From positions 1 through 64,000 of the IMG/VR virus record IMGVR_UViG_3300008952_000009: a DNA stretch of 64,000 nucleotides. One strand, written 5' to 3'. Position numbers and translations under genes: made by a program. How positions within the stretch are numbered: the stretch's first letter is position 1; every line of letters begins with the position of its first letter. A model generated the notes under the pieces. That model did not search any database and was not told where the DNA came from. It saw only the letters and a program-made list of their open reading frames with translations. Positions 19,530-44,326 of the stretch are shown here, piece after piece. The stretch is from a virus.

Positions 19530-19967
19530 CTAATTTACCTCTACTAATTCGATATCAAAGTTGAGATTCTTGCCTGCCATAGGATGATTAAAATCAATCA
19601 CAACAAACTCCTCCTCAACCTGATTAATCACTCCACGAACTGGCTGATTCTGTACGTTTCCTTCAATAACCACTCCCGCTTCAAACTCAAAGTTCTCTGG
19701 AAATGATTGTTTTGGCACAGATTGGATGCCTTCAGGATTATGTTCACCATAAGCCTGTTCAGGTTCAAGTGTAACAGTCTTCGTTTCGCCAACCTTCATC
19801 CCATTAACAGCTGCGTCAAATCCAGGGATCATCTGCCCTGCACCCACAGTAAACTCAATGGCCTCGCCACGGTCATACGAACTATCAAAAACAGTTCCGT
19901 CCTCGAAGGTTCCCTTGTAGTGAACATGCACTGCACGACCTTCCTTTGCTATTGTCTTCTTACCCAT
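19530..19967 (-). CDS. FKBP/SlyD-type peptidyl-prolyl isomerase
   Basis: 145 residues. Catalyses cis/trans isomerisation of X-Pro bonds and helps folding. VHVHYKGTFEDGTVFDSS is the FKBP start; GAGQMIPGFDAAVNGMKVGE is the conserved core; an insert-in-flap domain of about 60 residues (AYGEHNPEGI to VEEEFVVIDFNHP) and NHPMAGKNLNF are as in SlyD and SlpA. No His-rich tail. Cytoplasmic. Prolyl isomerases are unusual in phages; with GroEL, GroES and Hsp20 it extends the folding set of this phage. Confidence 0.92.
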   Translation of the reverse strand: MGKKTIAKEGRAVHVHYKGTFEDGTVFDSSYDRGEAIEFTVGAGQMIPGFDAAVNGMKVGETKTVTLEPEQAYGEHNPEGIQSVPKQSFPENFEFEAGVVIEGNVQNQPVRGVINQVEEEFVVIDFNHPMAGKNLNFDIELVEVN

Positions 19968-19981
19968 TTTATGTACTCCTT

Positions 19982-20236
19982 TTAATTGTTTTGGTTAAGA
20001 TCTTTTTTTCTCTTCATTTTTTTCTTGAGGTATTTTCCAACCTCTGATTCTAGTTCAACCTCCTCCAATCCCTCCTCTTCTGGAGGTTCCCATATGTCCC
20101 ACTCTACATTATCCATATTATCCTTTCCGTAGATGTAAGTCAAGTGATTTTCGAAATCTTTTGCCTTACAGTCAAAAGTCGAAGTCCTATCTTCGATATG
20201 ATTATTCTTGAGAATATATACTGTCGCTTCAATCAT
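19982..20236 (-). CDS. Hypothetical acidic protein
   Basis: 84 residues, MIEATVYILKNNHI. Beta-alpha start, a very acidic middle (PPEEEGLEEVELESE), basic end (KKKMKRKKD). ATGA overlap with the upstream gene. Confidence 0.6.
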   Translation of the reverse strand: MIEATVYILKNNHIEDRTSTFDCKAKDFENHLTYIYGKDNMDNVEWDIWEPPEEEGLEEVELESEVGKYLKKKMKRKKDLNQNN

Positions 20237-20670
20237 CCAACAATCCTTATAACTGGTCTTAATTCGGAAGAGAACCCCTTCTCTTCATAGTATTCTAAAT
20301 CCATCTCATTCAACTTCTTAAAGACCGCGCTCAACTTATCAGAAGAATTGGGTCCAAAAACTACACTCGACGGGAATGAAACAAAGTTTAAAAACTCATC
20401 CAGTTCCCTCTCAATGTTGGTTGTGGATATACCTCGCATGTCCAGGGTTCTGTATCTTTTCTGTGTTCTTCTATATTTCTTGTTCTCAGCATATTTGATT
20501 CTCATATTACCACAGTCAATCATTTGCCAAAACTGCGCCTTCTTGATTCTATTTACTCTGTCCCTAAACAAGTAAAACCAATACGCCCTAGTCTCTTTGA
20601 TCAACAGCCCTGTACCAATATCTGTCATGATCATGTCGCCTGGTTTTACATTGTACCTCTCTTCTATCAA
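20233..20670 (-). CDS. Hypothetical protein with SH3-like N-terminus, TTG start
   Basis: 145 residues from a TTG that overlaps the preceding TGA as TTGA, with GGAG nine bases upstream. A longer reading from 20769 would cover a membrane gene in another frame. VKPGDMIMTDIGTGLLI then WFYLF fits the small-barrel pattern; the C-terminal 90 residues are charged and helical. Confidence 0.6.
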   Translation of the reverse strand: MIEERYNVKPGDMIMTDIGTGLLIKETRAYWFYLFRDRVNRIKKAQFWQMIDCGNMRIKYAENKKYRRTQKRYRTLDMRGISTTNIERELDEFLNFVSFPSSVVFGPNSSDKLSAVFKKLNEMDLEYYEEKGFSSELRPVIRIVG

Positions 20671-20792
20671 TCTCTCGTTCTCCAGAACAGATAAACCTGA
20701 AGGACAAACAAGGCCACTATCGCGAGAATATACCATTGCCTGTTCTCCATCGTTATGACACCATACCAATCGTTTACTTCCATAACATTCAT
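20667..20792 (-). CDS. Small membrane protein
   Basis: 41 residues, MNVMEVNDWYGVITMENR then WYILAIVALFVLQVYLFW, then RTRD. One membrane segment with positive residues inside. ATGA overlap before and TTGA overlap after. Confidence 0.6.
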   Translation of the reverse strand: MNVMEVNDWYGVITMENRQWYILAIVALFVLQVYLFWRTRD

Positions 20793-20965
20793 TCTCTCAC
20801 CAAACTTAAATCCCCAGACCACACCCAAAGTCTCTGCTCACCGAAGAGCACTAGAAGTTTGCCCACCTCATTTGGCTCCTTGAGTATTATACCATGCTTC
20901 ACCTTGGGGGATAACAAGGGATCATGGTGCCAGTGAGTATATTTTACCAAATCTCCGACTCTCAA
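20789..20965 (-). CDS. SH3-like small protein (family member), TTG start
   Basis: 58 residues, MRVGDLVKYTHWHH. Pattern: VGDLVKY, KHGIILKE, KLLVLFGE. The TTG directly follows the TAA stop of the DUF2061-like gene. Sequence similarity to the other family members makes the reading convincing despite the rare start. Confidence 0.65.
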   Translation of the reverse strand: MRVGDLVKYTHWHHDPLLSPKVKHGIILKEPNEVGKLLVLFGEQRLWVWSGDLSLVRE

Positions 20966-21169
20966 TTATTTGTCAACACCAAACCTTGTCTTGTACCACA
21001 ACCTCTCATGAGTATAGTATAGGACCGTCTTGGTCAAAATCTCTATGCCACTAAACATTGCTGCATAGTCAATGCTACCAGTCATTATCCACGATAATAT
21101 GAACGTGTCCAGTGTTCCTACAATTCTCCACGTTAGCGCCTTAGCGACGTGTCTCTTCTTTTGTACCAC
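20966..21169 (-). CDS. DUF2061-type membrane protein
   Basis: 67 residues with a GTG start behind GAGAGG. KALTWRIVGTLDTFILSW, then IEILTKTVLYYTHERLW, is the pattern of DUF2061 proteins: two membrane segments and a conserved K-A-x-T-W-R start. Role unknown. Directly after the 21203-21231 promoter. Confidence 0.8.
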   Translation of the reverse strand: MVQKKRHVAKALTWRIVGTLDTFILSWIMTGSIDYAAMFSGIEILTKTVLYYTHERLWYKTRFGVDK

Positions 21170-21202
21170 TATTACCTCTCCTTTGTTTGTTATTGTTTAT
21201 AT

Positions 21203-21231
21203 ACTATACCAGATATGTTTTATGAAGTCAA
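21203..21231 (-). promoter_or_regulatory. Sigma70 promoter (TTGACT-17-TATAGT)
   Basis: Hexamers 21231-21226 and 21208-21203, spacer 17, immediately upstream of the DUF2061-type gene. Confidence 0.8.
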
Positions 21232-21244
21232 TCTTTTTTTTATG

Positions 21245-21616
21245 TTATGGTAGGGGGCGTCCAATATAATTATTCCAGGCATATCTCTTTCTCTTTTCGA
21301 GATAATCTTCCTCGTCTTCGCAGTCATATGATTCTCTTTCGAATGGAATGTCATAATACGCCTTCCTGCCGTTGCCGTGTCTCAAGTATCCCTTCATCCA
21401 GTACCATCCGTAAAGAATTAGAAATCCGACAAAAAAGCACTCGATTTGCTGCTGAAAATGGATACACTCGTGGCGCCTGGTTGTTTCGCCTACTTCTCCG
21501 CGACACCAGACAAAAATACCAAGATTAATCGCTCCGATCTCAATTGGAGCAATCTTGCTCAACCAAACTGGGACTCTACTATTCTCTATGAAAATAGGCG
21601 TTAATGATTTCAGCAT
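21245..21616 (-). CDS. Membrane-associated HExxH-type protein
   Basis: 123 residues, MLKSLTPIFIENSR. RRHECIHFQQQIE carries H-E-x-x-H, the zinc-peptidase signature; a hydrophobic stretch (FFVGFLILYGWYWMKGY) follows, then AYYDIPFERESYD and a YAW motif near the end. I have seen this layout in phage and bacterial proteins of unknown function. Whether it is a protease is untested. Confidence 0.65.
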   Translation of the reverse strand: MLKSLTPIFIENSRVPVWLSKIAPIEIGAINLGIFVWCRGEVGETTRRHECIHFQQQIECFFVGFLILYGWYWMKGYLRHGNGRKAYYDIPFERESYDCEDEEDYLEKRKRYAWNNYIGRPLP

Positions 21617-21866
21617 CAGTCTTACCTCCGTCGTAAACCCACAACCATTTTTTGTAGAGCCAACCTTGACCGTTTTCAGACCTCCTTAGATTAGTAAAAT
21701 ATGATTCATACTTAACTCCTGGGACCATCCGTACAAGGGCCTTATCGCTATAACCGTCTCCTCTTTGCTCTATCCTAAGAAGTAAACCGATCCACTCGTG
21801 TCTTGGAAAAATATAGTGATGAACAAGGTCCCCCACTTTCGGTTCTTTTCTACTGGTTCGTACCAC
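21579..21866 (-). CDS. SH3-like small protein (family member)
   Basis: 95 residues, probably GTG start. Pattern: PKVGDLVHHY, IGLLLRIEQ, KALVRMVPG. The extra 30 C-terminal residues overlap the next gene by 38 bases. Confidence 0.55.
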   Translation of the reverse strand: MVRTSRKEPKVGDLVHHYIFPRHEWIGLLLRIEQRGDGYSDKALVRMVPGVKYESYFTNLRRSENGQGWLYKKWLWVYDGGKTDAEIINAYFHRE

Positions 21867-21874
21867 ATAAGTAA

Positions 21875-22012
21875 CTAGTATTTACAAGAACATTCTGTCT
21901 GCTGATATTCAATTTGCCTATCGTAATCCCTATACCAAAACACTACCGCAGTCAATATTAGAGACCAAAGTATTAAGGAAGTTTGTTCAAGAACTTTAGG
22001 CGATAGTTTGAT
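21875..22012 (-). CDS. Possible small membrane protein without a standard start codon
   Basis: An open frame of 45 codons encodes LEQTSLILWSLILTAVVFW then a polar tail ending CSCKY, the usual shape of the small membrane proteins in this window. There is no ATG, GTG or TTG before the membrane segment. An ATC at 22012 stands six bases after a GGAGGTGA ribosome site, the strongest in the area. The first codons overlap the end of 21996-22553. Confidence 0.35.
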   Translation of the reverse strand: MKLSPKVLEQTSLILWSLILTAVVFWYRDYDRQIEYQQTECSCKY

Positions 22013-22553
22013 AGTTAGTCACCTCCACGACTTTCGAAAGGTCATACTTATACTTAGCAGCAACGTTTGGTCTGCTCCTACTTTCCGCTTCTTGGATTAG
22101 GAACTTGAGCCTCTTAAACAACAACTCACAGTTTATATAAAACTGAAAGGCTTTGACCAACACACTAACACCCGTGAAACTCATGGAGGTAGTATTTTCA
22201 CTGAAACAAGTTCTGTCCTTCATATCGTTTCTGAACTCAATCTTCATCATTGTCTTAGACTTTAATGAGAGTTCCCTTCCAGCTGAATGATCTACTTGAA
22301 AATATAAATCACTCAACCCTATTGTGTCCAAAGACTTATAAGTTTCACCAAAGTGATTGACCAATGCATTAAATCCAGCGTCGACGAGACCAACTCCGTT
22401 ACCAGAAAATTCTCTCTCTTCCGAATTGTACTGCATCTTCAATGTAATGTCTGTTTGGTTCCTTTCTTCATATAAATTAAGTGATAGTAGTTTTAACTCT
22501 ACCCTCTCTTTAAGATATTCCACGAAATACTTCAAGATAAGATCTCTGTTCAT
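21996..22553 (-). CDS. Protein resembling the LeuA regulatory (dimerisation) domain
   Basis: 185 residues. Two similar halves: EFSGNGVGLVDAGFNALVNH near 48-68, and FTGVSVLVKAFQFYIN near 126-141, each after antiparallel strands. This repeats the layout of the C-terminal allosteric domain of 2-isopropylmalate synthase (G-x-G-x-G-P-V-D-A then A-L). No synthase domain is present. Family call from memory of the motif; it could be a small-molecule sensor. Confidence 0.45.
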   Translation of the reverse strand: MNRDLILKYFVEYLKERVELKLLSLNLYEERNQTDITLKMQYNSEEREFSGNGVGLVDAGFNALVNHFGETYKSLDTIGLSDLYFQVDHSAGRELSLKSKTMMKIEFRNDMKDRTCFSENTTSMSFTGVSVLVKAFQFYINCELLFKRLKFLIQEAESRSRPNVAAKYKYDLSKVVEVTNYQTIA

Positions 22554-22933
22554 ACTGTTGTCTTTTCAAATCCCTGTGAAACTTTAAAAATTTTGCGAAC
22601 GCCTTTTGTTTGTTTGATCATTCTGAGGATCTTTAATTTTGCATCCTCTGGTGATCTGATCATTCCTGGTAGACTAGGTATGAACTTTACCTTCAACCCT
22701 GCTATGTAATCTGTTTCTGATATTTTCTGATTCTTTACCATGATGGTTACAACGGTGATACTAGGGATTGCTCGAATATCGGCAACGATGTCCTCCAACC
22801 CTCTATATCCTCTCTCACCGCCAGATTCGGACTTGTATCCTAACATCATATAGAACTGGTAAACGCCCGTCTGTCGGGAGCGATCCTGCCTTTCTTGGAT
22901 GAGCGAGTCAAAATAATCTTGAACTTCTTTCAT
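22550..22933 (-). CDS. Conserved phage-type protein, alpha/beta
   Basis: 127 residues. GLEDIVADIRAIPSITVVTI, then DYIAGLKVKFIP, then AKLKILRMIKQTKGVRKI give a beta-alpha-beta ferredoxin-like layout. I recall similar sequences in marine phages without assigned function. ATGA overlap with the next gene. Confidence 0.55.
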   Translation of the reverse strand: MKEVQDYFDSLIQERQDRSRQTGVYQFYMMLGYKSESGGERGYRGLEDIVADIRAIPSITVVTIMVKNQKISETDYIAGLKVKFIPSLPGMIRSPEDAKLKILRMIKQTKGVRKIFKVSQGFEKTTV

Positions 22934-22970
22934 AAATAATACCTTACATTAAATAGTCAAAGGTGGAAGT

Positions 22971-22992
22971 AAAAGAGGGGCAAAAGCCCCTC
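22971..22992 (-). terminator. Intrinsic terminator after hsp20
   Basis: Minus strand: GAGGGGC, loop TTTT, GCCCCTC, then TTTTAC. A 7-bp GC-rich stem with a short T run, nine bases past the hsp20 stop. Confidence 0.8.
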
Positions 22993-23000
22993 TTATGTAT

Positions 23001-23435
23001 TTAGTCAATCTTGATTGACAGTGGTTGTACCTCTGGGCGCTGCGGAACTCTAACTGAAAGCAAACCGTTCTCAAACTGCGCTTGTGCTGCAGCAAGATCA
23101 AGGTTGTCGTCATAGTTAACGTACGTTTTCGTGAAGTTCCTACGGGCAATGCGTTGGCGCTTCTCGTTGTTCTCGTCTACCTGACCAGTTATAGTGATTG
23201 ACCGCTTATCAGTCTGAATGTCAATAGTGAGTTCTTTCTTCTTGAACCCTGCTAGGGCAAACTCCAGAATTGTAGAACCATCGTCGTCTCGATAAATGTC
23301 GGCAACGGGATAGCCCTTTGTTGTGTGCTTAATCGCACCATCCATAAAGTGTTGATCACTAAACAGATTATCTAAAACTTCACTTAAGTACTTGTGACCC
23401 AGAAGTCCTGGTCTATGTATTGCTATGTTGTTCAT
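23001..23435 (-). CDS. Hsp20/alpha-crystallin small heat-shock protein
   Basis: 144 residues. ATP-independent holdase that binds unfolding proteins. N-terminal arm to about 40, alpha-crystallin domain from YPVADIYRDDDGSTILEF to about 135 (ALAGFKKKELTIDI, GLLSVRVPQ), and a C-terminal tail. It is a one-gene unit with a perfect promoter (23504-23532), a structured leader (23444-23498) and a terminator (22971-22992). Strong AGGAGG ribosome site. Small Hsps occur in several marine phages. Confidence 0.93.
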   Translation of the reverse strand: MNNIAIHRPGLLGHKYLSEVLDNLFSDQHFMDGAIKHTTKGYPVADIYRDDDGSTILEFALAGFKKKELTIDIQTDKRSITITGQVDENNEKRQRIARRNFTKTYVNYDDNLDLAAAQAQFENGLLSVRVPQRPEVQPLSIKID

Positions 23436-23443
23436 GTTATTTC

Positions 23444-23498
23444 CTCCTTATTAAGCAAGTTACATTTTATGATCAAGTCCCGAAGCAACTCAATCATA
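23444..23498 (-). promoter_or_regulatory. Candidate ROSE-like RNA thermometer in the hsp20 leader
   Basis: The roughly 62-base leader can form two hairpins. The first (23498-23468) pairs TATGAT with ATCATA, extended by further pairs including wobbles. The second (23459-23444) is CUUGCU, loop UAAUA, AGGAG: the UUGCU anti-ribosome-site motif of ROSE elements pairs with AGGA of the ribosome site, leaving the G bulged as in known ROSE RNAs. The ATG follows the AGGAGG by seven bases. Heat melting would free the site. Folding was done by eye. Confidence 0.6.
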
Positions 23499-23503
23499 CC
23501 TAT

Positions 23504-23532
23504 ATTATAAGCACTGCCCAATAGAATGTCAA
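23504..23532 (-). promoter_or_regulatory. Perfect sigma70 promoter of hsp20 (TTGACA-17-TATAAT)
   Basis: Hexamers 23532-23527 and 23509-23504. No sigma32-type site was seen, so any heat response would have to be after transcription. Confidence 0.9.
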
Positions 23533-23867
23533 TAGTAAAGTTGAATAAAAATTATTAAAACCGCTAGTCCGAAACAGACCATAGTCTTGGGCGTGAGCAT
23601 CGACTCTCCCAATAGAAACCAAGTCAGTATAGGAAATATGATCAGTCCTGCCGAAGACCCTATAAATCTTGCTGTCCATGCTGAACCAGTCTCATCGACA
23701 ATAAACTTCCAAGAATACCAAAAAGCAAGTGAACACGGCACACCCAACACAAATGCTGCAGTGATTGGTTTGTCTTTCCACCAGTCAGAGATATATTGAG
23801 AATTTAATTGAAACCACCCTACGATCTGGCCAACGAAAACCAGTACGATACCTAACGACATCTTCAT
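23529..23867 (-). CDS. Small multi-span membrane protein
   Basis: 112 residues, four hydrophobic segments (about 2-20, 35-52, 63-83, 92-111). FIVDETGSAWTARFIG and FPILTWFLLGESML are strongly patterned; I recall similar proteins in marine bacteria and phages, resembling half of an EamA/DMT transporter. Substrate unknown. TGATG overlap with the preceding gene; its end covers the hsp20 -35 box. Confidence 0.7.
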   Translation of the reverse strand: MKMSLGIVLVFVGQIVGWFQLNSQYISDWWKDKPITAAFVLGVPCSLAFWYSWKFIVDETGSAWTARFIGSSAGLIIFPILTWFLLGESMLTPKTMVCFGLAVLIIFIQLYY

Positions 23868-24217
23868 CAGTGTACTTCCAGACTCAGCGATGCATCTTTT
23901 AAAAGTTTCTTAGACTCAGATAATGCCAACAAACATTTCCAAATGTTTGCTATCTCTTCTTCTAGAAGTTCAAGTTCTCCATTTTCGTTCAACTCAACAA
24001 CCTCTATCAGTTCATCCAGGAAATTTCTAAATATAAAAGCGTTGACGCAGATCTTGTTTAACTCCTGATAAACAGTCTCTGAGACGTTCATGTCCTCACA
24101 ATGTGCTGCTCTCAAAAGTTCCTTACTGAAGCTCAAACACTCAACAGTCCATTTGCGCCATTCTTCCAGAGAATCAGGTTTGAACTTCAGTTTGATATCA
24201 CTATCTCCCGCTGACAA
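23867..24217 (-). CDS. Hypothetical helical protein
   Basis: 116 residues, MSAGDSDIKLKFKP. Almost wholly helical and acidic, with a coiled-coil-like stretch (LDELIEVVELNENGELEL). Not recognised. Confidence 0.6.
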   Translation of the reverse strand: MSAGDSDIKLKFKPDSLEEWRKWTVECLSFSKELLRAAHCEDMNVSETVYQELNKICVNAFIFRNFLDELIEVVELNENGELELLEEEIANIWKCLLALSESKKLLKDASLSLEVH

Positions 24218-24602
24218 AACCCTTACCCCAAAAATGTTTGCTGTTTCTTTCTTCTGTTATAAGCAATACACTGATAAACATATCTTCTTGCTTTCTAATC
24301 ACCTTAGCACTGTGAAGTTCTAGACTTCCATACTTTGGTTTCCTAATTCTTCTCTGAAACTTTCTTCTTGGGGGAGGGGCATTTAGAAATTCTATACACC
24401 CGTCTATTAAATCTTCATCGGTAACCGAAGGCGGGATGGAGTCCTCGACCCTAATCCTCGCAGCAATTACCCACTTCTTCGATGCGAACCCTGGTACATT
24501 CCAAAACATACTTCCATGGTATCTACCGAATTTAGTCTTGCCTTTTGCAAACTTCCTAATACCTTCATGTTCATAAATCGGTTCTAAATCACAACTAATC
24601 AC
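24201..24602 (-). CDS. Hypothetical protein
   Basis: 133 residues, MISCDLEPIYEHEG. A basic segment PPPRRKFQRRIRKPKY lies near 75-90. Overlaps both neighbours by a few bases. No family recognised. Confidence 0.6.
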   Translation of the reverse strand: MISCDLEPIYEHEGIRKFAKGKTKFGRYHGSMFWNVPGFASKKWVIAARIRVEDSIPPSVTDEDLIDGCIEFLNAPPPRRKFQRRIRKPKYGSLELHSAKVIRKQEDMFISVLLITEERNSKHFWGKGFVSGR

Positions 24603-24849
24603 TTAATTCGCCTTTCAGGTCATCACAACCACCAACTAATTTAACTATACCAGTTTCTCCGTCGATGCGCAAGACAATTGGTACCGTGCGGTGGTCATAA
24701 AACTTCTTCGCTTCTTCTAGGAACTCTCGATCGTCCTCTAGGTCAAAAAAATCATATTCTATACCAGCAAAATCCAGGAGATGCACAGCCTCTATACAGT
24801 ACGGACAAGAGGATCGCCCATAAACTAAATAACTTGTCCCCCTAGCCAT
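24595..24849 (-). CDS. Glutaredoxin
   Basis: 84 residues. Thiol-disulfide exchange, active site CPYC at 15-18, cis-Pro segment HRTVPIVLRI, and the GGCDDL motif near the end. Usual length for a glutaredoxin. Phage glutaredoxins often serve ribonucleotide reductase; the class II enzyme here also needs a dithiol donor. Confidence 0.92.
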   Translation of the reverse strand: MARGTSYLVYGRSSCPYCIEAVHLLDFAGIEYDFFDLEDDREFLEEAKKFYDHRTVPIVLRIDGETGIVKLVGGCDDLKGELSD

Positions 24850-25126
24850 TGAGAAGTCTCCTGGTGTCCTTCATAGACTTCAATACCTGTGCGTATTCTC
24901 CCAGGACTGTAATTCTTGCTACAGATGATCCCATAGAATATACAACTTCTGTAAACTTAAGGTCGTCTGCGGTGTTACCATTAACTTCCTGGATGTTCTG
25001 ATGAGAAGGACTCACCGAGATAATAGAGTTTGTATTAATCGACATTGGTGTTGTGCTGAACACGTCCCTAACCAATCCATTATTAAATGCAGAATCTCTC
25101 GACAGTACATCAAGCGTTATCATCAT
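24842..25126 (-). CDS. Hypothetical protein
   Basis: 94 residues, MMITLDVLSRDSAF; GGAGG nine bases upstream fixes this start. Ser/Thr/Asn-rich middle, helical end. Not recognised. Confidence 0.55.
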   Translation of the reverse strand: MMITLDVLSRDSAFNNGLVRDVFSTTPMSINTNSIISVSPSHQNIQEVNGNTADDLKFTEVVYSMGSSVARITVLGEYAQVLKSMKDTRRLLNG

Positions 25127-25397
25127 CGCTAGGTGCCTCCCTTTTTGGTTCCACAAACATGGCTTTCATGAACCCACTCAAGATAGACTCACAATCAGCG
25201 TACGATTCGGAAAGGTCCGCAGATAACTGCCTCATTCTACCCAGGTCGTTCAGGGACTTAACTCCCAGATCACCTGCGTGGATTTCCTGCGTTATCTCTT
25301 TGATTTGTGATATCAAATCTTCGTTCTTTTTCACAATTTCTTTAATCTTATTTGGTATTTCTTCCAAATCGATCGTATAAGATACTTTTACCTTCAT
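25110..25397 (-). CDS. Hypothetical coiled-coil protein
   Basis: 95 residues, MKVKVSYTIDLEEI, then a long heptad-like helix (IKEIVKKNEDLISQIKEI). Acidic end. Not recognised. Confidence 0.6.
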   Translation of the reverse strand: MKVKVSYTIDLEEIPNKIKEIVKKNEDLISQIKEITQEIHAGDLGVKSLNDLGRMRQLSADLSESYADCESILSGFMKAMFVEPKREAPSDDDNA

Positions 25398-25412
25398 TAT
25401 TTCTCCGTGTTA

Positions 25413-25682
25413 TTACAAAACTTTAATAAGCAATGCACTTGCAAGACCCACGACGGCCGTAAACAAAGTCCAGATAACCTTGGAAGATGTATCTCTCCAG
25501 GACTCAAGCGCCCTGATGCGTGCGTAGAGTCCCTCATCTGGGTTGTATACGGCTTCTTTGATCTTGCCGACATTCTCCATCATCTCATCCTGTCGATCCT
25601 TAACTGTCTCAATTGCTAAACATAACTTATCTAGTTTTCTAGTCAACTCTAACACCAAGTTCCTATCAAGATCTTCTGACAT
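25413..25682 (-). CDS. Coiled-coil membrane protein, XhlA-like layout
   Basis: 89 residues: helical N-terminal 65 residues, then a C-terminal membrane segment (VIWTLFTAVVGLASALLI). This layout is that of XhlA-type lysis accessory proteins, but no lysis genes adjoin. Confidence 0.55.
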   Translation of the reverse strand: MSEDLDRNLVLELTRKLDKLCLAIETVKDRQDEMMENVGKIKEAVYNPDEGLYARIRALESWRDTSSKVIWTLFTAVVGLASALLIKVL

Positions 25683-25735
25683 TTATTAACCCTCCTGGAC
25701 TTCATCCACACAATAACTAGTTGCGACAAGGGCAA

Positions 25736-27319
<1,584 letters not shown>

Positions 27320-27336
27320 TCACTTTGTATGGTTAT

Positions 27337-27365
27337 ATTATAATCAAGTATACACTAGATGTCAA
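27337..27365 (-). promoter_or_regulatory. Perfect sigma70 promoter of groEL (TTGACA-17-TATAAT)
   Basis: Hexamers 27365-27360 and 27342-27337, leader about 17 bases. No CIRCE repeat was seen. Confidence 0.9.
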
Positions 27366-27373
27366 GTGGTTTG

Positions 27374-28318
27374 TTAGATTTTTTCGGCAGCGGCCTTTGT
27401 TTTGACAGTCTTCTTTATTGTCTTGGATTTTTGAGCGGACGTCTCTTTCTTTCCTTGGATCGATGCGTCAGTCTTAAACCTCTCCGCAGCAGTAACGAGT
27501 TCCTGCAGCGTTGAAAAGAGATTCTTAAATTTTGAATCAAGTGCTTGAAAGAGTTTTTCTGTATAATCAACAGCATTCGATAAGTCCAATGTTCCTATGT
27601 CCTTAAATTCATATATTGAATCCTTTAGTTCGTCGGGTTTTAACACAAACGTGCCGCCCTTGACCAACCGATTCTTCTTGTTTCGGGACAATGAAGATTC
27701 CATCTTGTTATATGCATCTATATTTATGACAAATCTATAGAACCTAATCTTCTGGTCTTCTGGGAACTTTTCGCCAACAATGTAGGTCAAATATCCATCC
27801 GACTGGAGATGTGTACGCAAGTTCTTGTAAGATCCTTGTACATTCGATCCTGGTTTGATAAATTTAAGTGACACGGGCATTCCTGGGAAGTCCACATCGG
27901 CCAAGTTAGTCGCAGTGCTCTGGATTACCTTACCACCGAAGATCTCAGCCAGAAGGTGCTCAAACTGATACCCTTTGGCTGATTGATTTGGTGCGGACAA
28001 CAGATTGTGCAAAGTGCGTAAGACATCAACCTTAGCGATAGATGCTACATGATCGTTGATATCTATCTCTTCAGTTAAGAACTGGTTCATTCGCTGAATA
28101 AAACTACTCAACTCTGCAATGCTTCCAGGAACAACGTTTGCGACAGCTGTCTGAAGTCTTTTTAAACTTTCTGGTTTGGTTGCGTCTGATGCATCATTCA
28201 TCCAGTTGAAGTCCATAACAATTGGTTGATACTCTATTGTTGCTGGTTCTTCCTTGTTCTCCGAAATAGGTTTTCCAACTTTGGCGAACAACTCAACTAA
28301 AAGATCTAAATCACTCAT
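27374..28318 (-). CDS. Possible nuclease-fold protein
   Basis: 314 residues. GYQFEHLLAEIFGG, then LADVDFPG, then MPVSLKFIK has the Glu, Asp and S-x-K spacing of PD-(D/E)xK nuclease folds (residues about 118-160). Lys/Ala-rich tail from 285. It lies between ClpP-like and GroEL genes. Function unproven. Confidence 0.5.
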   Translation of the reverse strand: MSDLDLLVELFAKVGKPISENKEEPATIEYQPIVMDFNWMNDASDATKPESLKRLQTAVANVVPGSIAELSSFIQRMNQFLTEEIDINDHVASIAKVDVLRTLHNLLSAPNQSAKGYQFEHLLAEIFGGKVIQSTATNLADVDFPGMPVSLKFIKPGSNVQGSYKNLRTHLQSDGYLTYIVGEKFPEDQKIRFYRFVINIDAYNKMESSLSRNKKNRLVKGGTFVLKPDELKDSIYEFKDIGTLDLSNAVDYTEKLFQALDSKFKNLFSTLQELVTAAERFKTDASIQGKKETSAQKSKTIKKTVKTKAAAEKI

Positions 28319-29082
28319 AGATAATCATCTGCGATCCCGTATTTGATCGCTTCCTCTGCAGATAAATAGGCATCAACGTTGTTTAAAAGTAACTTTTTAA
28401 TCTTGTTCCTGGTTAGTTTCGTACATGAACAGAGGTAATCAAAATACATGTTTTGTAACTCTTTGGTTTCCTTCATCTCATTCTCAATATTGGGAAACGA
28501 ACCGTGATGTCCACTAATGACACTATGAAGCATCACTCTGCAGTTCTTGCCGATCTTTCTTCGCCCCTTTGTACCGCTGGCAAGGATCAATACCCCTGCT
28601 GACATTACTTTACCGATACCAATCGTTTCGATGTCACAATCTTGCTTGATTGTACTCATAATATCAATGATAGAAAACATATCAGATACAATACCTCCAT
28701 GAGTGGAGATGTACAACTTGAAAGGCTTCTTCACCTCAACCATACTACCATCTTCAATCTCCACAACCGATGTCTTGGTGTGATCAAAGTAAAGCATTGC
28801 CTGGACAACCTCGGCCGCCATTCGTTCTGAGATGTCCCCATAACAATTGATTGCTCGTATATCGTCCTTATCGTCCTTACCTGCAATGTTATTGACGATG
28901 TATATCGGTTGCTTTCCAGAATCAATGATTTCATCGGCAAAATCATTTGCCAATTCTTCAAGGGTCTCTTCTTTCTTCTTTTTCTTCTTTTTGGAAGATT
29001 TTCTCGGCACTACGAATTCTCCAAAACTATTGTTTATCAATCCCTCTGGTGCTTCGACCTTCTTAGATAACTTTCTTGGCAT
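28315..29082 (-). CDS. ClpP-type serine protease
   Basis: 255 residues, MPRKLSKKVEAPEG, start fixed by AAGGAG. A Lys-rich N-terminal extension, then the ClpP fold from about residue 55: LYISTHGGIVSDMFSIID, catalytic Ser in IGKVMSAGVLILASG, catalytic His in RVMLHSVISG, and EEAIKYGIADD at the end. Could be a prohead protease or act with a host Clp ATPase. The acidic protein 29764-30363 is close by. Confidence 0.88.
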   Translation of the reverse strand: MPRKLSKKVEAPEGLINNSFGEFVVPRKSSKKKKKKKEETLEELANDFADEIIDSGKQPIYIVNNIAGKDDKDDIRAINCYGDISERMAAEVVQAMLYFDHTKTSVVEIEDGSMVEVKKPFKLYISTHGGIVSDMFSIIDIMSTIKQDCDIETIGIGKVMSAGVLILASGTKGRRKIGKNCRVMLHSVISGHHGSFPNIENEMKETKELQNMYFDYLCSCTKLTRNKIKKLLLNNVDAYLSAEEAIKYGIADDYL

Positions 29083-29356
29083 TGTAAACTCTCTCCTTGT
29101 TTGTTGGCGTTTTTTCGACAATTCTGAACGGGAAAGTTCTTAAGAACGACTTCCACTTATTATCATTCTGAAACTCTCTTTGCAAAATAAGGATCGATTC
29201 CTTTCGCTTTGGACTAAATCCCGTAGAACATTCATTCCACTCACCCAACTCCCTTAACAAAGTCTTGACCTTTCGACCATCCTTATATCTTAATTGTATT
29301 CTACATACGACGGTCTTGTCGTCGTTCCTAACTTCTCTCCAAGCAACGATATCCAT
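29063..29356 (-). CDS. Hypothetical basic protein
   Basis: 97 residues, MDIVAWREVRNDDK, GGAG five bases before the ATG. Beta-strand start, then many Lys/Arg. Not recognised. Confidence 0.55.
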   Translation of the reverse strand: MDIVAWREVRNDDKTVVCRIQLRYKDGRKVKTLLRELGEWNECSTGFSPKRKESILILQREFQNDNKWKSFLRTFPFRIVEKTPTNKERVYNAKKVI

Positions 29357-31445: not shown

Positions 31446-32441
31446 CTAGTTCCTCCTAAGTATATGTGTACTGCTCTCTATCTGAGAAGCATTCGACTGA
31501 ATAATAAACTCTGCCTTGGCCTGAAGTTGGGTTATGTTCCTTGCTCCAGAGTACGAAAGACCTGATCTTACATTCTGCGTTAAACTTTCAACTATCCCCA
31601 CAACCGACCCCTTATATGGAATCGTAGTGGAAATACCCTCAAGAGACCTGGCAGATCCGCGCCAATCCTGCTGTGCTTCCACTGATGCCATTCCCCTATA
31701 GACCTTATATTTACTACCATCAGTACTCTGAAAGGTCTCTCCAGGACTTTCGTCTGTGCCAGCTAACATTGACCCCAGCATCACAAAGTCTGCTCCTGCA
31801 GCAAGAGCCTTGACTATATCGCCTGCAGTCTTTATGCCGCCGTCAGCAATAATCACTGCGCCGTCCTCATAACTACAAGTCAACACCGATTCAAAAGTTG
31901 GGACACCATGACCAGTCTGGACCCTGGTTGAGCAGATTGATCCACCACCAATTCCAATCCTTACTGCATCTGCGCCCCACTCCGAGAGGGCAACGTATGC
32001 CTTCGGTGTGGCGACGTTACCAGCGATGACATTAACTTCCTCACCATACTTATCTTTAATTGTTTTCAGGGCCCTCTCAACCAAAACGTGATGTCCGTGG
32101 GCGACGTCTAAACAGAAAGTCGAAACACCCACATCATTAAGAGACTTGACCCTATCCATGAAATCACCAGAAACACCAATGGCGGCGGCCGCGTTAGAAG
32201 GGGTCATCTGAATTTGCTCTTCTTTAGTGCAATATCTGTGTGTTATTGCAAGGGCGCCCAACTCTCCAAAGGTGCTTGCCATTCGCAACCCAGTTACCGT
32301 ATCCATCGGACTTGATATGATTGGCAAGTAATACGTCCTATTCCCCAGCTGGCGGGTGAGGTCAATTTCCGATCTCGACTCCACGTCGCTAAATTGAGGC
32401 ACTAATAAAACGTCATCAAAACTATGTGTTTGTCTTTTCAT
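31446..32441 (-). CDS. IMP dehydrogenase/GMP reductase family enzyme
   Basis: 331 residues, a TIM barrel without the CBS domains of bacterial [14 protein letters not shown] start; ISSPMDTVT; catalytic loop [24 protein letters not shown], then [14 protein letters not shown]; a flap-like segment [11 protein letters not shown]. The family oxidises IMP to XMP (IMPDH) or reduces GMP to IMP; the YKG and LSYSGA end looks more IMPDH-like, but I cannot decide. Supports guanine nucleotide supply. Confidence 0.85.
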
Positions 32442-38416: not shown

Positions 38417-39122
38417 AAAACTTTATCTTCTTGGTACTCTTATACACTGTCTCCTCCATTGAGACAACCATTCTTTCCATTACTTCCAATTTGGGCTTCC
38501 TTCTTACTGTGCCACCCTTGTGGATTAAAGGTCTGTGTACTCCTCCCTGTTCCATTAACAACTTCTGAGTAATGAACCTAACCATTGTATCAGAATAATC
38601 AAAGTCTGTCAACTGTTCTTTCGTTAAGAAAGATACAGAGAAAATCTCTTTCTTTCCCGTGGACTCGATCCTCGAAATAAAACTGCCATTTGGAAAAACG
38701 GGAACTAAATTAGATGCATCACAAAATTTCAACCTCATAAAATCGATAATTTTATAAGAATCTCGACCCTCTGTTGCCAATACTTCCAGATCTACTTTGA
38801 TTGCACTGTCTGGAAAGATGTGACACTTTTGAAACTGAATGTCAGTTCCTCTAATTTTAAGTATGTTTTCCTCTATTCTCACATATTCCAAATCAAATGG
38901 ATTAACAATCAATCCCTTCATCCCACACAAGAATTTAAGCATAGACCATGCCTCTGAATGTCTTGTAGTGGTCAGCTGCCCCACCTTTATCTGTTTGGCA
39001 AATTTGAGATCGACGGTGGGTAGTTGATGTCGGGGCAGGATTATCGGCACCTCTTCAGTATAAGACTTCATGAGAGCGCAGACATCCTGTCCGACTATAA
39101 CCTCATCGAGTATCAATAGCAC
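38349..39122 (-). CDS. Hypothetical protein
   Basis: 257 residues from GTG at 39122; a TTG at 39116 overlapping the preceding stop as TTGA is equally likely, given the habit of this genome. Beta-rich middle, basic helical C-terminus (KKIKFYDRKKRSN). Not recognised. Confidence 0.6.
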   Translation of the reverse strand: MLLILDEVIVGQDVCALMKSYTEEVPIILPRHQLPTVDLKFAKQIKVGQLTTTRHSEAWSMLKFLCGMKGLIVNPFDLEYVRIEENILKIRGTDIQFQKCHIFPDSAIKVDLEVLATEGRDSYKIIDFMRLKFCDASNLVPVFPNGSFISRIESTGKKEIFSVSFLTKEQLTDFDYSDTMVRFITQKLLMEQGGVHRPLIHKGGTVRRKPKLEVMERMVVSMEETVYKSTKKIKFYDRKKRSNIIEAYSRHHSSIEG

Positions 39123-41179
39123 ATACCCATGGCAAAATCATACCTGGAACCATATGATTCATCTATTACAATCCCAGAGACGTTCATGAACCCTGAAGGT
39201 GTTACATACGTTGCCTCCTGCTCAGATGATCCCAAACAAATGTCATCCAAGATAGACATTAAGTCATCATACATTTGCTGTTGGTTGCGAGATAGTTCAA
39301 AAATAGTTCCATTGCCACTTGTCACATAGTCGTTCCAAACACGAGAGCGCCTTTCTGCGAAAGCATAAAACTTTAAGTTCGGAGTAGATTCAAGTGCTTC
39401 CAAGACTTGAGTTGCAGTGACAGTTGGAACCAAGTAGGACTGTGCATATTCATCACTAAATAAGACAATAATCCTATCTGCGTTTGGTCTCCAGTTCACC
39501 TTGAAGAATTTTAATTCTGGGATTGAACCCATTCTATTGGCCCAAGTTGCTTGAGCAAAGTTATAGTTAACATTGCCAGAGATGTTTTGCAGAGCGAGTA
39601 AAATGGCATCCTTAAATTGCTCGTTGCCTGTCGAGTTGTCGAACTGCCCTACATTGGAAAATGCTGTTAGGAACTGATCGAACTCAGTGATATTCGACTC
39701 CATAATAAGCATCTCTTGCGTGCCAGTAGGAGTAGGGGCTCCTTTAGGTCCAACGATTAGTCCCCACTTCAATTTATCCTCTGCTGCAAAATTCTGAGCA
39801 AATCTATTCATTGCCATCCTCACTGCATTGATATAGTTCTCCATGGAACCAGACCAGTCTACTAAAAATAAAATATCTGTCTCTGGAATTTCCTCTCCGT
39901 AGTCTACGATACCGTCACAGTCATCGTCAGCACCATTGCAGATTTCCTCCTGTGGTAAAGTTTCACCTCCACAAAAGTCAACGACTTGACCTTGTGTTGG
40001 GTGGTCTCCATACCACTGCCCTCTGTTACAAGACTGCTCTCCCATTTCGCAGATTCCCACATTCAAGGTACCTTCAGGCCCAGTGTAGCAATCTCTAACA
40101 AGCTGTTCATCTATCAAACTATCACAGTCTTCATCGAAGTCGTTGCACATCTCAGGGTTTATGGCAACTCCTGCAAACTGATCGCACTCCTCACCAGGTT
40201 CTAACTCAGGAACCCAATGGCAAAGAGCAAAGCACTCGGTCATCTGAGTGATTTGGCACTCCTCATTAATACACTCGCAAGTCTTAAACCCCATACCACA
40301 AGTTAAGGGAGGTTCCATGCAGGGCACGAGCGCGCCCACTGACTCTGGTGGGCATTGGCAGTTCAAACCTTCGTCAACTAGATTATCACAGTCATTATCC
40401 TCGCCATCGCAGGCTTCAGGTGCAGGTCTTTGAGCAGTGCAACCTATCCAGTTGCCGTTTGCACATATCTCTAAACCTGAGTTACAAGTAGTTGAACACT
40501 CTCTAATAAGTTGTTCGTCAGCTGAACCGTCGCAATCATTATCAAGTCCGTCGCAAATGTCTTCTGGAACCTGTCCACAACCACCGCAGGCATTTAACTG
40601 GTTTTCATCAACATTGCCATCGCAGTCGTTATCCTGGTTGTCACAAACCTCTTCCTCTTCAAAACAAGTAATACACTCTCCGTAGTAAAGTCTGCCCTTG
40701 TCACATTTAACTTCCTGTCTACCTGTGGTGCCATCTATTTCACAATCATAATACATCGTGAAGTCTTCGTTTATCCCAGGAGGACAGTCGAATGCGTGTA
40801 CACATTCAGATTCCTCTAAAATCTCTGCTGGTGGACAGTTTGGATCTCTGTTTCTATCACAGGGAATCAAATCTTCTCCACAAATGTCTAGGATTGCATA
40901 TTTTGCCCGAATCTCTGTTCCCGTAGGTGGACAGTACCAAGTTTGGCGTTGGCAACAAGTCGGATTGCAGGTGCAATATAAATCATCAGTGTTCGCAAGA
41001 TTAGCACAGGGGTCCACCCAAGCATCTACAGTGATATCTGGGATTTCAACAATCTGAGTGTCAACAGAGGAATCAACAATCACCATTCTTTGTACATCTG
41101 GTGCTGGTGCAGTGCCGATGGGCGTCGAGTCTGTACAAGCAACAACAAATAGCATACAGAACAAAATTCTACTTTTCAT
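39113..41179 (-). CDS. Lipoprotein with five MopE-type repeats and a VWA domain
   Basis: 688 residues. Lipoprotein signal MKSRILFCMLFVVAC (Cys15). A Cys-rich region, then five C-(D/N)-x-x-D-x-D-C-D repeats near 178-195, 207-224, 256-273, 344-361 and 412-430, as in the putative metal-binding MopE motif. A von Willebrand A domain runs from about 436 to 640 with metal site DWSGS at 443-447. Such repeats are common in Myxococcota surface proteins and rare in phages. Could be a surface adhesion or exclusion factor, or a virion adhesin; the signal argues for the host envelope. Confidence 0.85.
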   Translation of the reverse strand: MKSRILFCMLFVVACTDSTPIGTAPAPDVQRMVIVDSSVDTQIVEIPDITVDAWVDPCANLANTDDLYCTCNPTCCQRQTWYCPPTGTEIRAKYAILDICGEDLIPCDRNRDPNCPPAEILEESECVHAFDCPPGINEDFTMYYDCEIDGTTGRQEVKCDKGRLYYGECITCFEEEEVCDNQDNDCDGNVDENQLNACGGCGQVPEDICDGLDNDCDGSADEQLIRECSTTCNSGLEICANGNWIGCTAQRPAPEACDGEDNDCDNLVDEGLNCQCPPESVGALVPCMEPPLTCGMGFKTCECINEECQITQMTECFALCHWVPELEPGEECDQFAGVAINPEMCNDFDEDCDSLIDEQLVRDCYTGPEGTLNVGICEMGEQSCNRGQWYGDHPTQGQVVDFCGGETLPQEEICNGADDDCDGIVDYGEEIPETDILFLVDWSGSMENYINAVRMAMNRFAQNFAAEDKLKWGLIVGPKGAPTPTGTQEMLIMESNITEFDQFLTAFSNVGQFDNSTGNEQFKDAILLALQNISGNVNYNFAQATWANRMGSIPELKFFKVNWRPNADRIIVLFSDEYAQSYLVPTVTATQVLEALESTPNLKFYAFAERRSRVWNDYVTSGNGTIFELSRNQQQMYDDLMSILDDICLGSSEQEATYVTPSGFMNVSGIVIDESYGSRYDFAMGMCY

Positions 41180-43390: not shown

Positions 43391-44326
43391 TCACGACACC
43401 TCCTGAACCAGTAACACAATAATGATCGAAACGGACAGTCCCAACATCATCTTCATGAAGTCCTTGGCGACAAGAGGAAAGACCTTTTTCACCTTTCTAT
43501 CCATTCTCGTTGCAATGGCGAGTTCACGACCACAAAGCAACCCTACAAACACCCACGTTGTGCTCATGGGAATGTTGTTCATCTGCTTTAGGTACAGTAA
43601 GATAAAAGCATAAACCGCATCGATGATTGTGGCCGAGCGCACATAAGACGTAGAGGATTTCTCAATTACTATCTGCTGTATCTTGCCACCCTTGGTATAA
43701 AAGACATACCCCAACACAGACACCAATAACACAAGCACGCCTGACAAGAACTCTACGCTCATCTGTCTTGGTGCGAACACTGCTATGTTCGCGAGGTCAT
43801 GACTTAGCCAAGTGAACCATAAGAATCCCGTTGTACCCCACTGGGCGATGCGCCAGGCACGTTCATGGTCTGGTTTAACCTTCTTCTTTTCGTCTAAGTA
43901 TTTGGACAGAATCATCCAAAACCCGTAAGCTACAGTTGCTGCTATGGCATATCCAAGGACACTCTTAACCAACATCTTCTCAAAAACAACAGTACTAGCA
44001 AAGGCGGATAACACCAAGAATGTCGTAGAGACTGGAATGCCATATCTTGTCAGCAACAGTAAAACACCTGGTGCTAATGCATGGTACCACTCAACTGTTA
44101 CGAAAGGTATCTTCTCTAGGCGTCCGAAGGATATGTCTCCTCCATATGCAAACCAACTGTACAAAACAGTCGCAACAAGCACTGATGAGGCAGCTGCCCA
44201 CAGTTTCCACCATGGCGTCTTCTTATTCGACACCATAAACGTTCCCAAGGTTTGAACGGCATCGTTACTCATAACCGCTGTGCCAGCAAGGGTGATCCCA
44301 ACAAGGGGCAAAATCATCTCTAACAT
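43391..44326 (-). CDS. Inorganic phosphate transporter (PiT family)
   Basis: 311 residues, about nine to ten membrane segments. Signature repeats: SNDAVQTLGTF near 20-30 and SHDLANIAVF near 176-185. Imports phosphate into the host, as an auxiliary gene of marine phages facing phosphate limitation. Shorter than E. coli PitA (499 residues) but similar to phage versions. Confidence 0.92.
   Translation of the reverse strand: MLEMILPLVGITLAGTAVMSNDAVQTLGTFMVSNKKTPWWKLWAAASSVLVATVLYSWFAYGGDISFGRLEKIPFVTVEWYHALAPGVLLLLTRYGIPVSTTFLVLSAFASTVVFEKMLVKSVLGYAIAATVAYGFWMILSKYLDEKKKVKPDHERAWRIAQWGTTGFLWFTWLSHDLANIAVFAPRQMSVEFLSGVLVLLVSVLGYVFYTKGGKIQQIVIEKSSTSYVRSATIIDAVYAFILLYLKQMNNIPMSTTWVFVGLLCGRELAIATRMDRKVKKVFPLVAKDFMKMMLGLSVSIIIVLLVQEVS

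Follow-up and report, generated by a model that had tools for sequence, protein, structure and literature searches.

The leader of the small heat-shock gene hsp20 in a marine phage is, with a probability of about three in four, a viral member of the short two-hairpin class of ROSE-like RNA elements, for which heat would be the expected trigger. Judged by sequence features, this ROSE-like device is common to the heat-shock gene leaders of many distantly related phages: U(U/C)GC lies opposite GGA near the start codon in 88/88 phage leaders, versus 1/67 other starts in the window, i.e., the whole 64-kb stretch of viral DNA that was analysed. This count was anchored on UYGC and GGA, is independent of any covariance model, and comes from a search that required the G. 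A ROSE-like reading of the hsp20 leader was put forward in the initial annotation and is supported by its position, its two hairpins, the pairing of U(U/C)GCU with the Shine-Dalgarno (SD) sequence, the unpaired G, covariation, and the recognition of Escherichia coli ibpB and ibpA by a phage-only model.

Organization of the hsp20 locus

The hsp20 gene is transcribed from the minus strand of the window (Table 1). Direct reading confirmed the sequence and coordinates given for its leader in the initial annotation, and the promoter described there as perfect indeed agrees with the consensus at every position; no heat-shock sigma motif was seen by eye at this promoter. The 5' end of hairpin I lies at about the presumed transcription start. 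Since a terminator-like hairpin follows the hsp20 stop, hsp20 is probably transcribed alone, i.e., its mRNA is probably a single-gene transcript. The motif GTGNTTAY occurs in 44/88 leaders (loci L024-L118), 130 to 40 bases before the start, and overlaps the -10 box in the window; it was considered as a heat promoter and dropped. Because several other perfect or near-perfect sigma-70 promoters occur in the window, no special promoter is claimed for hsp20.

Table 1. Features of the hsp20 locus in the window and positions of the element before phage dnaK genes
Feature	Position	Strand	Remarks
Sigma-70-type promoter TTGACA-N17-TATAAT	23504..23532	-	12/12 consensus match, 17-nt spacer
Promoter boxes	-35 TTGACA 23532-23527; -10 TATAAT 23509-23504	-	
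hsp20 leader, two hairpins	23497-23436	-	Behind perfect sigma-70 promoter
Hairpin I, AUGAUUGAGUUGC(UUCG)GGACUUGAUCAU	23469..23497	-	Unpaired G at 23486; covariation
Hairpin II, ROSE-like, CUUGCU-U-AAU-A-AGGAG	23444..23459	-	Unpaired G at 23456; 88/88 leaders
Anti-SD CUUGCU	23459-23454	-	Direct reading
SD AGGAGG	23443..23448	-	Paired in hairpin II; direct reading
hsp20 start codon ATG	23435	-	
hsp20 codons 4-7 (AGCAAUACA)	23416..23424	-	Predicted by folding: can pair with UGUA(AC)UUGCU (23464-23454), which excludes hairpin II
hsp20, alpha-crystallin small heat-shock protein	23001..23435	-	144 aa; Pfam HSP20 E 2.4e-10
Terminator-like hairpin, symmetric, directly 3' of hsp20 stop	22973..22994	.	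Listed on + strand by program; minus-strand T run by eye
Element before phage dnaK	L128/L126 (G006:C1:280969-281035); L185:938-1003; L147:938-1003		Covariance model

Several neighbouring genes are of the chaperone and protein-quality type: the cluster at 19530-29121 contains an FKBP-type isomerase, a glutaredoxin, GroEL (525 aa), a ClpP-like protease, and Hsp20. A second perfect sigma-70 promoter (27365-27337, -) stands directly before groEL, the leader of which is too short for a ROSE-like element. Elsewhere in the window, a large protein (39113-41179, -) combines MopE-like metal-binding repeats with a weak VWA match; proteins of this kind are known from Deltaproteobacteria and Myxococcota, which may hint at the host. 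Two genes may be auxiliary metabolic genes, namely, one with a weak PHO4 phosphate-transporter match (43391-44326, -) and one with a strong IMP dehydrogenase/GMP reductase match (31446-32441, -).

Occurrence of the element in phage leaders

Relatives of Hsp20 were collected from IMG/VR (22, then 80 loci), giving about 70 distinct leaders. DNA and protein similarity searches of named phages with the hsp20 of the window gave no match, and named cyanophages were reached through the divergent relative L017. The final set of 88 leaders comprises 85 from hsp20 and three from dnaK. The element is present in the cyanophages S-RSM4, S-N03, P-RSM1, S-RIM32, S-CAM4, S-MbCM7, MA01, S-CRM01, Bellamy, Sf-CH1b, and Syn1, as well as in Pelagibacter phage HTVC115P, Kyanoviridae phage C48C1, and the Pseudomonas jumbo phages PA5oct and MIJ3. 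The expectation that such an element would be unusual in a phage thus misjudged its scope, as it is the rule among the phage hsp20 leaders examined here.

ROSE elements are reported to occur exclusively with small heat-shock genes (PMC4166951). The genome of jumbo phage G006 contains a second strong match (49.1 bits) before dnaK (Pfam HSP70 E 2e-195), and the dnaK leaders L185 and L147 score 47.1 and 33.2 bits, respectively; the element is absent from most of the 60 viral dnaK loci searched. A weak second model match before a ClpP-like gene (L189; G027:C1:18552-18652; 20.2 bits) was rejected on account of a long insertion between anti-SD and SD.

Conserved pairing in the two hairpins

As in other ROSE-like elements, the leader belongs to a small heat-shock gene (Pfam HSP20) and adjoins its start codon, at which the model matches end; of the expected two to four hairpins with the SD in the last, two are found (RNAalifold, covariation); and U(U/C)GCU pairs imperfectly with the SD. 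The run of four U opposite the SD that marks fourU elements was not found, the anti-SD being CUUGCU. UYGCU is present in 87/88 leaders and UYGC in all 88, with Y being U in 66 and C in 22, and an unpaired G interrupts the helix of hairpin II in every leader, as the motif search demanded. The outer pair of hairpin II is C-G in 84 leaders and G-C in four, and the loop-closing pair is U-A in 75, A-U in eight, and G-C in one. The four G-C cases are S-RSM4, S-CAM4, S-MbCM7, and Sf-CH1b, in which an SD of AGGAC instead of AGGAG is matched by GUCGCU, so that the compensated change lies in the SD itself. In hairpin I, many leaders have (U/C)GC(C) opposite GG with the same kind of unpaired G as in hairpin II, and the loops above this motif are UUCG or GNRA-like.

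Compensatory changes back the pairing in the phage leaders beyond chance. Among 24 close leaders, 92.5% of the cells pair, versus at most 65% in slid versions, and 10/19 pairs change on both sides (9/13 in hairpin I); no shuffle reaches the observed values. For 55 non-seed leaders, the alignment of which was fitted to the model and therefore leans towards it, 92.3% of the cells pair, versus at most 61% when slid, covariation is 0.60 versus 0.19 in shuffled alignments, and 12/13 pairs of hairpin I change on both sides. Unaided, RNAalifold recovered both hairpins, albeit with a one-position register shift in the three outer pairs of hairpin II, which places the G opposite a G of the SD. Compared with 200 dinucleotide shuffles, the hsp20 leader of the window folded better (z -2.86), with one of the 200 as good. 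The two hairpins that had been drawn by eye are thereby borne out by RNAalifold and covariation, and so, by covariation, is the pairing of CUUGCU with AGGAG around one unpaired G. The five-base loop UAAUA proposed for hairpin II has to be reduced to three bases (AAU), because the relatives show an extra closing U-A pair. The window leader could also form a stem, AUGU/ACAU, that masks the start codon, but this stem was rejected as it is absent from the relatives.

Covariance models and Rfam families

In the 146.6-kb genome from which the window derives, model R1 found one strong site, the hsp20 leader (77.6 bits), followed by a next match of 14.6 bits. Model R2, built from phage leaders plus L120 and L121 (metagenome bins that are probably phage contigs), placed its strongest match on the hsp20 leader in each of 47 further virus records; weak second matches, present in a few of them, did not exceed 23.1 bits. 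In 125 kb of E. coli DNA, R2 matched only the leaders of ibpB (29.8 bits) and ibpA (14.9 bits).

By score, the phage element lies outside all present Rfam ROSE families. A search of the 64-kb window with all of Rfam at gathering scores returned two tRNAs only and no ROSE, and the gathering cut-off of ROSE, ROSE_2, or ROSE_3 was reached by no phage leader that was scored. When the limits were relaxed, the whole of ROSE_3 could be aligned with the hsp20 leader of the window at 16.1 bits (cut-off 43); since another place in the same genome reaches 15.8 bits, ROSE_3 alone is not discriminating here. The best genome-wide match, though below the cut-off, is the hsp20 leader for ROSE_3 in the phage of L085 (E 7.1e-6) and in C48C1 (E 1.3e-4), and for ROSE_2 in S-N03 (E 1.7e-4). 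The best Rfam ROSE scores in other phages were 31.1 bits against a cut-off of 43, and 26.2 against 65. The Infernal/Rfam check suggested in the initial annotation is divided, the best genome-wide ROSE_3 and ROSE_2 matches in these three phages speaking for the proposed element and the lack of a ROSE match above the cut-off speaking against it.

Folding predictions

When 30 nt of the gene are included in nearest-neighbour folding, the SD of the window leader is 75% open at 10 C; with 9 nt, it is 39% open. For the family as a whole, folding with 9 nt of coding sequence gave an SD less open than that of controls (median openness 0.30 versus 0.50 at 15 C, p 1e-5); with 36 nt, it was no less open than in controls. 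A scan from 10 to 50 C showed no opening for the window leader, nor for E. coli ibpA and ibpB, and for this reason folding scans cannot settle whether the leader opens upon heating. The temperature scan proposed earlier on hence went against the ROSE-like reading insofar as the SD is mostly open at low temperature in the presence of coding sequence, with the reservation that it is equally blind to E. coli ibpA and ibpB. The two outcomes named in advance as contrary to this reading, i.e., no ROSE hit and an SD that is unpaired in the cold, were seen in part, as no Rfam match exceeded its cut-off and coding sequence opened the SD; this is a weak test, given that the E. coli controls are flat.

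Proposed mechanism and alternative explanations

According to the mechanism proposed here, a housekeeping-type promoter would supply hsp20 mRNA, in the folded state of which hairpin II would keep the SD in an imperfect helix and presumably slow the translation of Hsp20. Opening of hairpin II, with heat as the trigger expected by analogy, would then allow ribosomes to bind, and Hsp20 could be synthesized immediately with no need for further transcription; hairpin I would be a stable accompanying structure at the 5' end. Because no Rfam ROSE cut-off was reached and folding leaves the SD of the window mostly open, we only infer the heat response of the leader by analogy, along with its repression and melting temperature.

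What a marine phage would gain from sensing heat is not self-evident, since the temperature of sea water rarely changes quickly within a single infection. The signal may instead be protein damage: free Hsp20, of the phage or the host, might bind its own leader and block translation until it is titrated by unfolded or aggregated proteins, a reading that we consider unlikely and that may act together with melting. Aggregates reportedly relieve the repression by IbpA of its own translation. E. coli IbpA binds the ibpA 5' leader and represses its own translation, for which R93 is needed (PMC10474464); R99 of the Hsp20 encoded in the window aligns with R93 and is invariant in 16 phage Hsp20, and the aligned Arg is also found in S-N03, S-RSM4, and HTVC115P. 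The conservation of R99 may, however, have other reasons, dnaK leaders carry the element as well, and PA5oct and C48C1 carry it yet have Lys at this position, which is inactive in IbpA (PMC10474464). Loss of Hsp20-mediated repression would be a second trigger, compatible with the melting of hairpin II. As a tentative and rather doubtful extension, many kinds of phages may own an RNA-controlled heat-shock regulon (hsp20, and dnaK in some large phages) that senses the protein damage of infection via melting and Hsp20 autorepression, and not the temperature of the sea.

With 30 nt of coding sequence attached, the UGUA..UUGCU segment of the window leader is predicted to pair preferentially with codons 4-7, which would fit a two-state switch, particular to the clade of the window, where the anti-SD pairs with either the SD (off) or codons 3-7 (on) and the gene start sets the balance. 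Matched changes point the same way, with leader GUAAC facing gene UUAC and GCAAC facing UUGC in L031, L033, L041, L042, and L050, as does a complementarity between leader and codons 4-7 above a synonymous-codon null (z -3.6 for the phage of the window; clade mean z -1.6). Such a switch is nevertheless improbable, as the independent changes are few, only 19% of the clade members pass p 0.05 singly, and 58 distant leaders show no excess (mean z 0.0); the coding-region pairing may be a second switch state or a quirk of this clade. Still less probable is a fixed attenuator or mRNA-stabilizing 5' structure that keeps Hsp20 low and constant regardless of any signal: it would agree with the stable 5'-terminal hairpin I, with its UUCG or GNRA-like loops, and with the lack of a temperature response in folding, but does not explain why the unpaired G and U(U/C)GCU are invariant in phages that are only very distantly related, or why the leaders resemble that of E. 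coli ibpB. Chance resemblance in an AT-rich leader, for which the weak Rfam match of the window alone might speak, can practically be discarded in view of the covariation, the motif counts in leaders and controls, the hsp20-leader matches in 47 virus records, and the E. coli ibp leaders as sole R2 matches. The ROSE-like reading, with melting of hairpin II, is preferred.

Relation to known RNA thermometers

The phage RNA thermometers named in PMC11182007 are those of lambda cIII, SPbeta blyA, and the leader of a sigma-70 gene. They share with the element proposed here the temperature control in phage leaders, but their structures are unrelated (fourU or two-conformation), and they are single cases that do not precede heat-shock genes. 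In a literature search that covered few subscription papers, such that an earlier report is possible, no RNA thermometer before phage heat-shock genes was found, and the leader goes unmentioned in the papers that deal with small heat-shock proteins of phages. In comparison with the three single cases in PMC11182007, the phage leaders would represent a whole viral family of one thermometer type, which goes with a core gene of marine T4-like phages and extends to dnaK. The family lends itself to testing why chaperones are carried by phages and in what way temperature or protein damage affects infection, and its leader alignment could become a new RNA family.

Among described ROSE elements, Rfam ROSE_2 (RF01832) or ROSE_3 (RF02523) can be aligned over the whole length with the hsp20 leaders of the window, S-N03, C48C1, and the phage of L085, always below the gathering score. 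The E. coli ibpB hairpin (CUCGCUUCUUAGAAGGAG) is nearly identical to the phage hairpin, and both ibpB and ibpA leaders are found by the phage model, although they are longer and part of a sigma-32 operon. Of the elements described, the short one of Pseudomonas ibpA comes closest: it is a proven thermometer with the same two-hairpin layout, in which only hairpin II melts, hairpin I remaining folded, and hairpin II alone is sufficient (PMC3669281). Like that element, the phage leader has only two hairpins in about 60 nt, a stable hairpin I, and a hairpin II in which U(U/C)GCU faces the SD with a lower C-G pair, a U-G pair, and an unpaired G. It differs in being phage-borne, in its perfect sigma-70 instead of sigma-32 promoter in the window, in a second unpaired-G motif in hairpin I, and in its additional occurrence before dnaK. 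By its sequence features, the phage element belongs to this short ROSE-like class.
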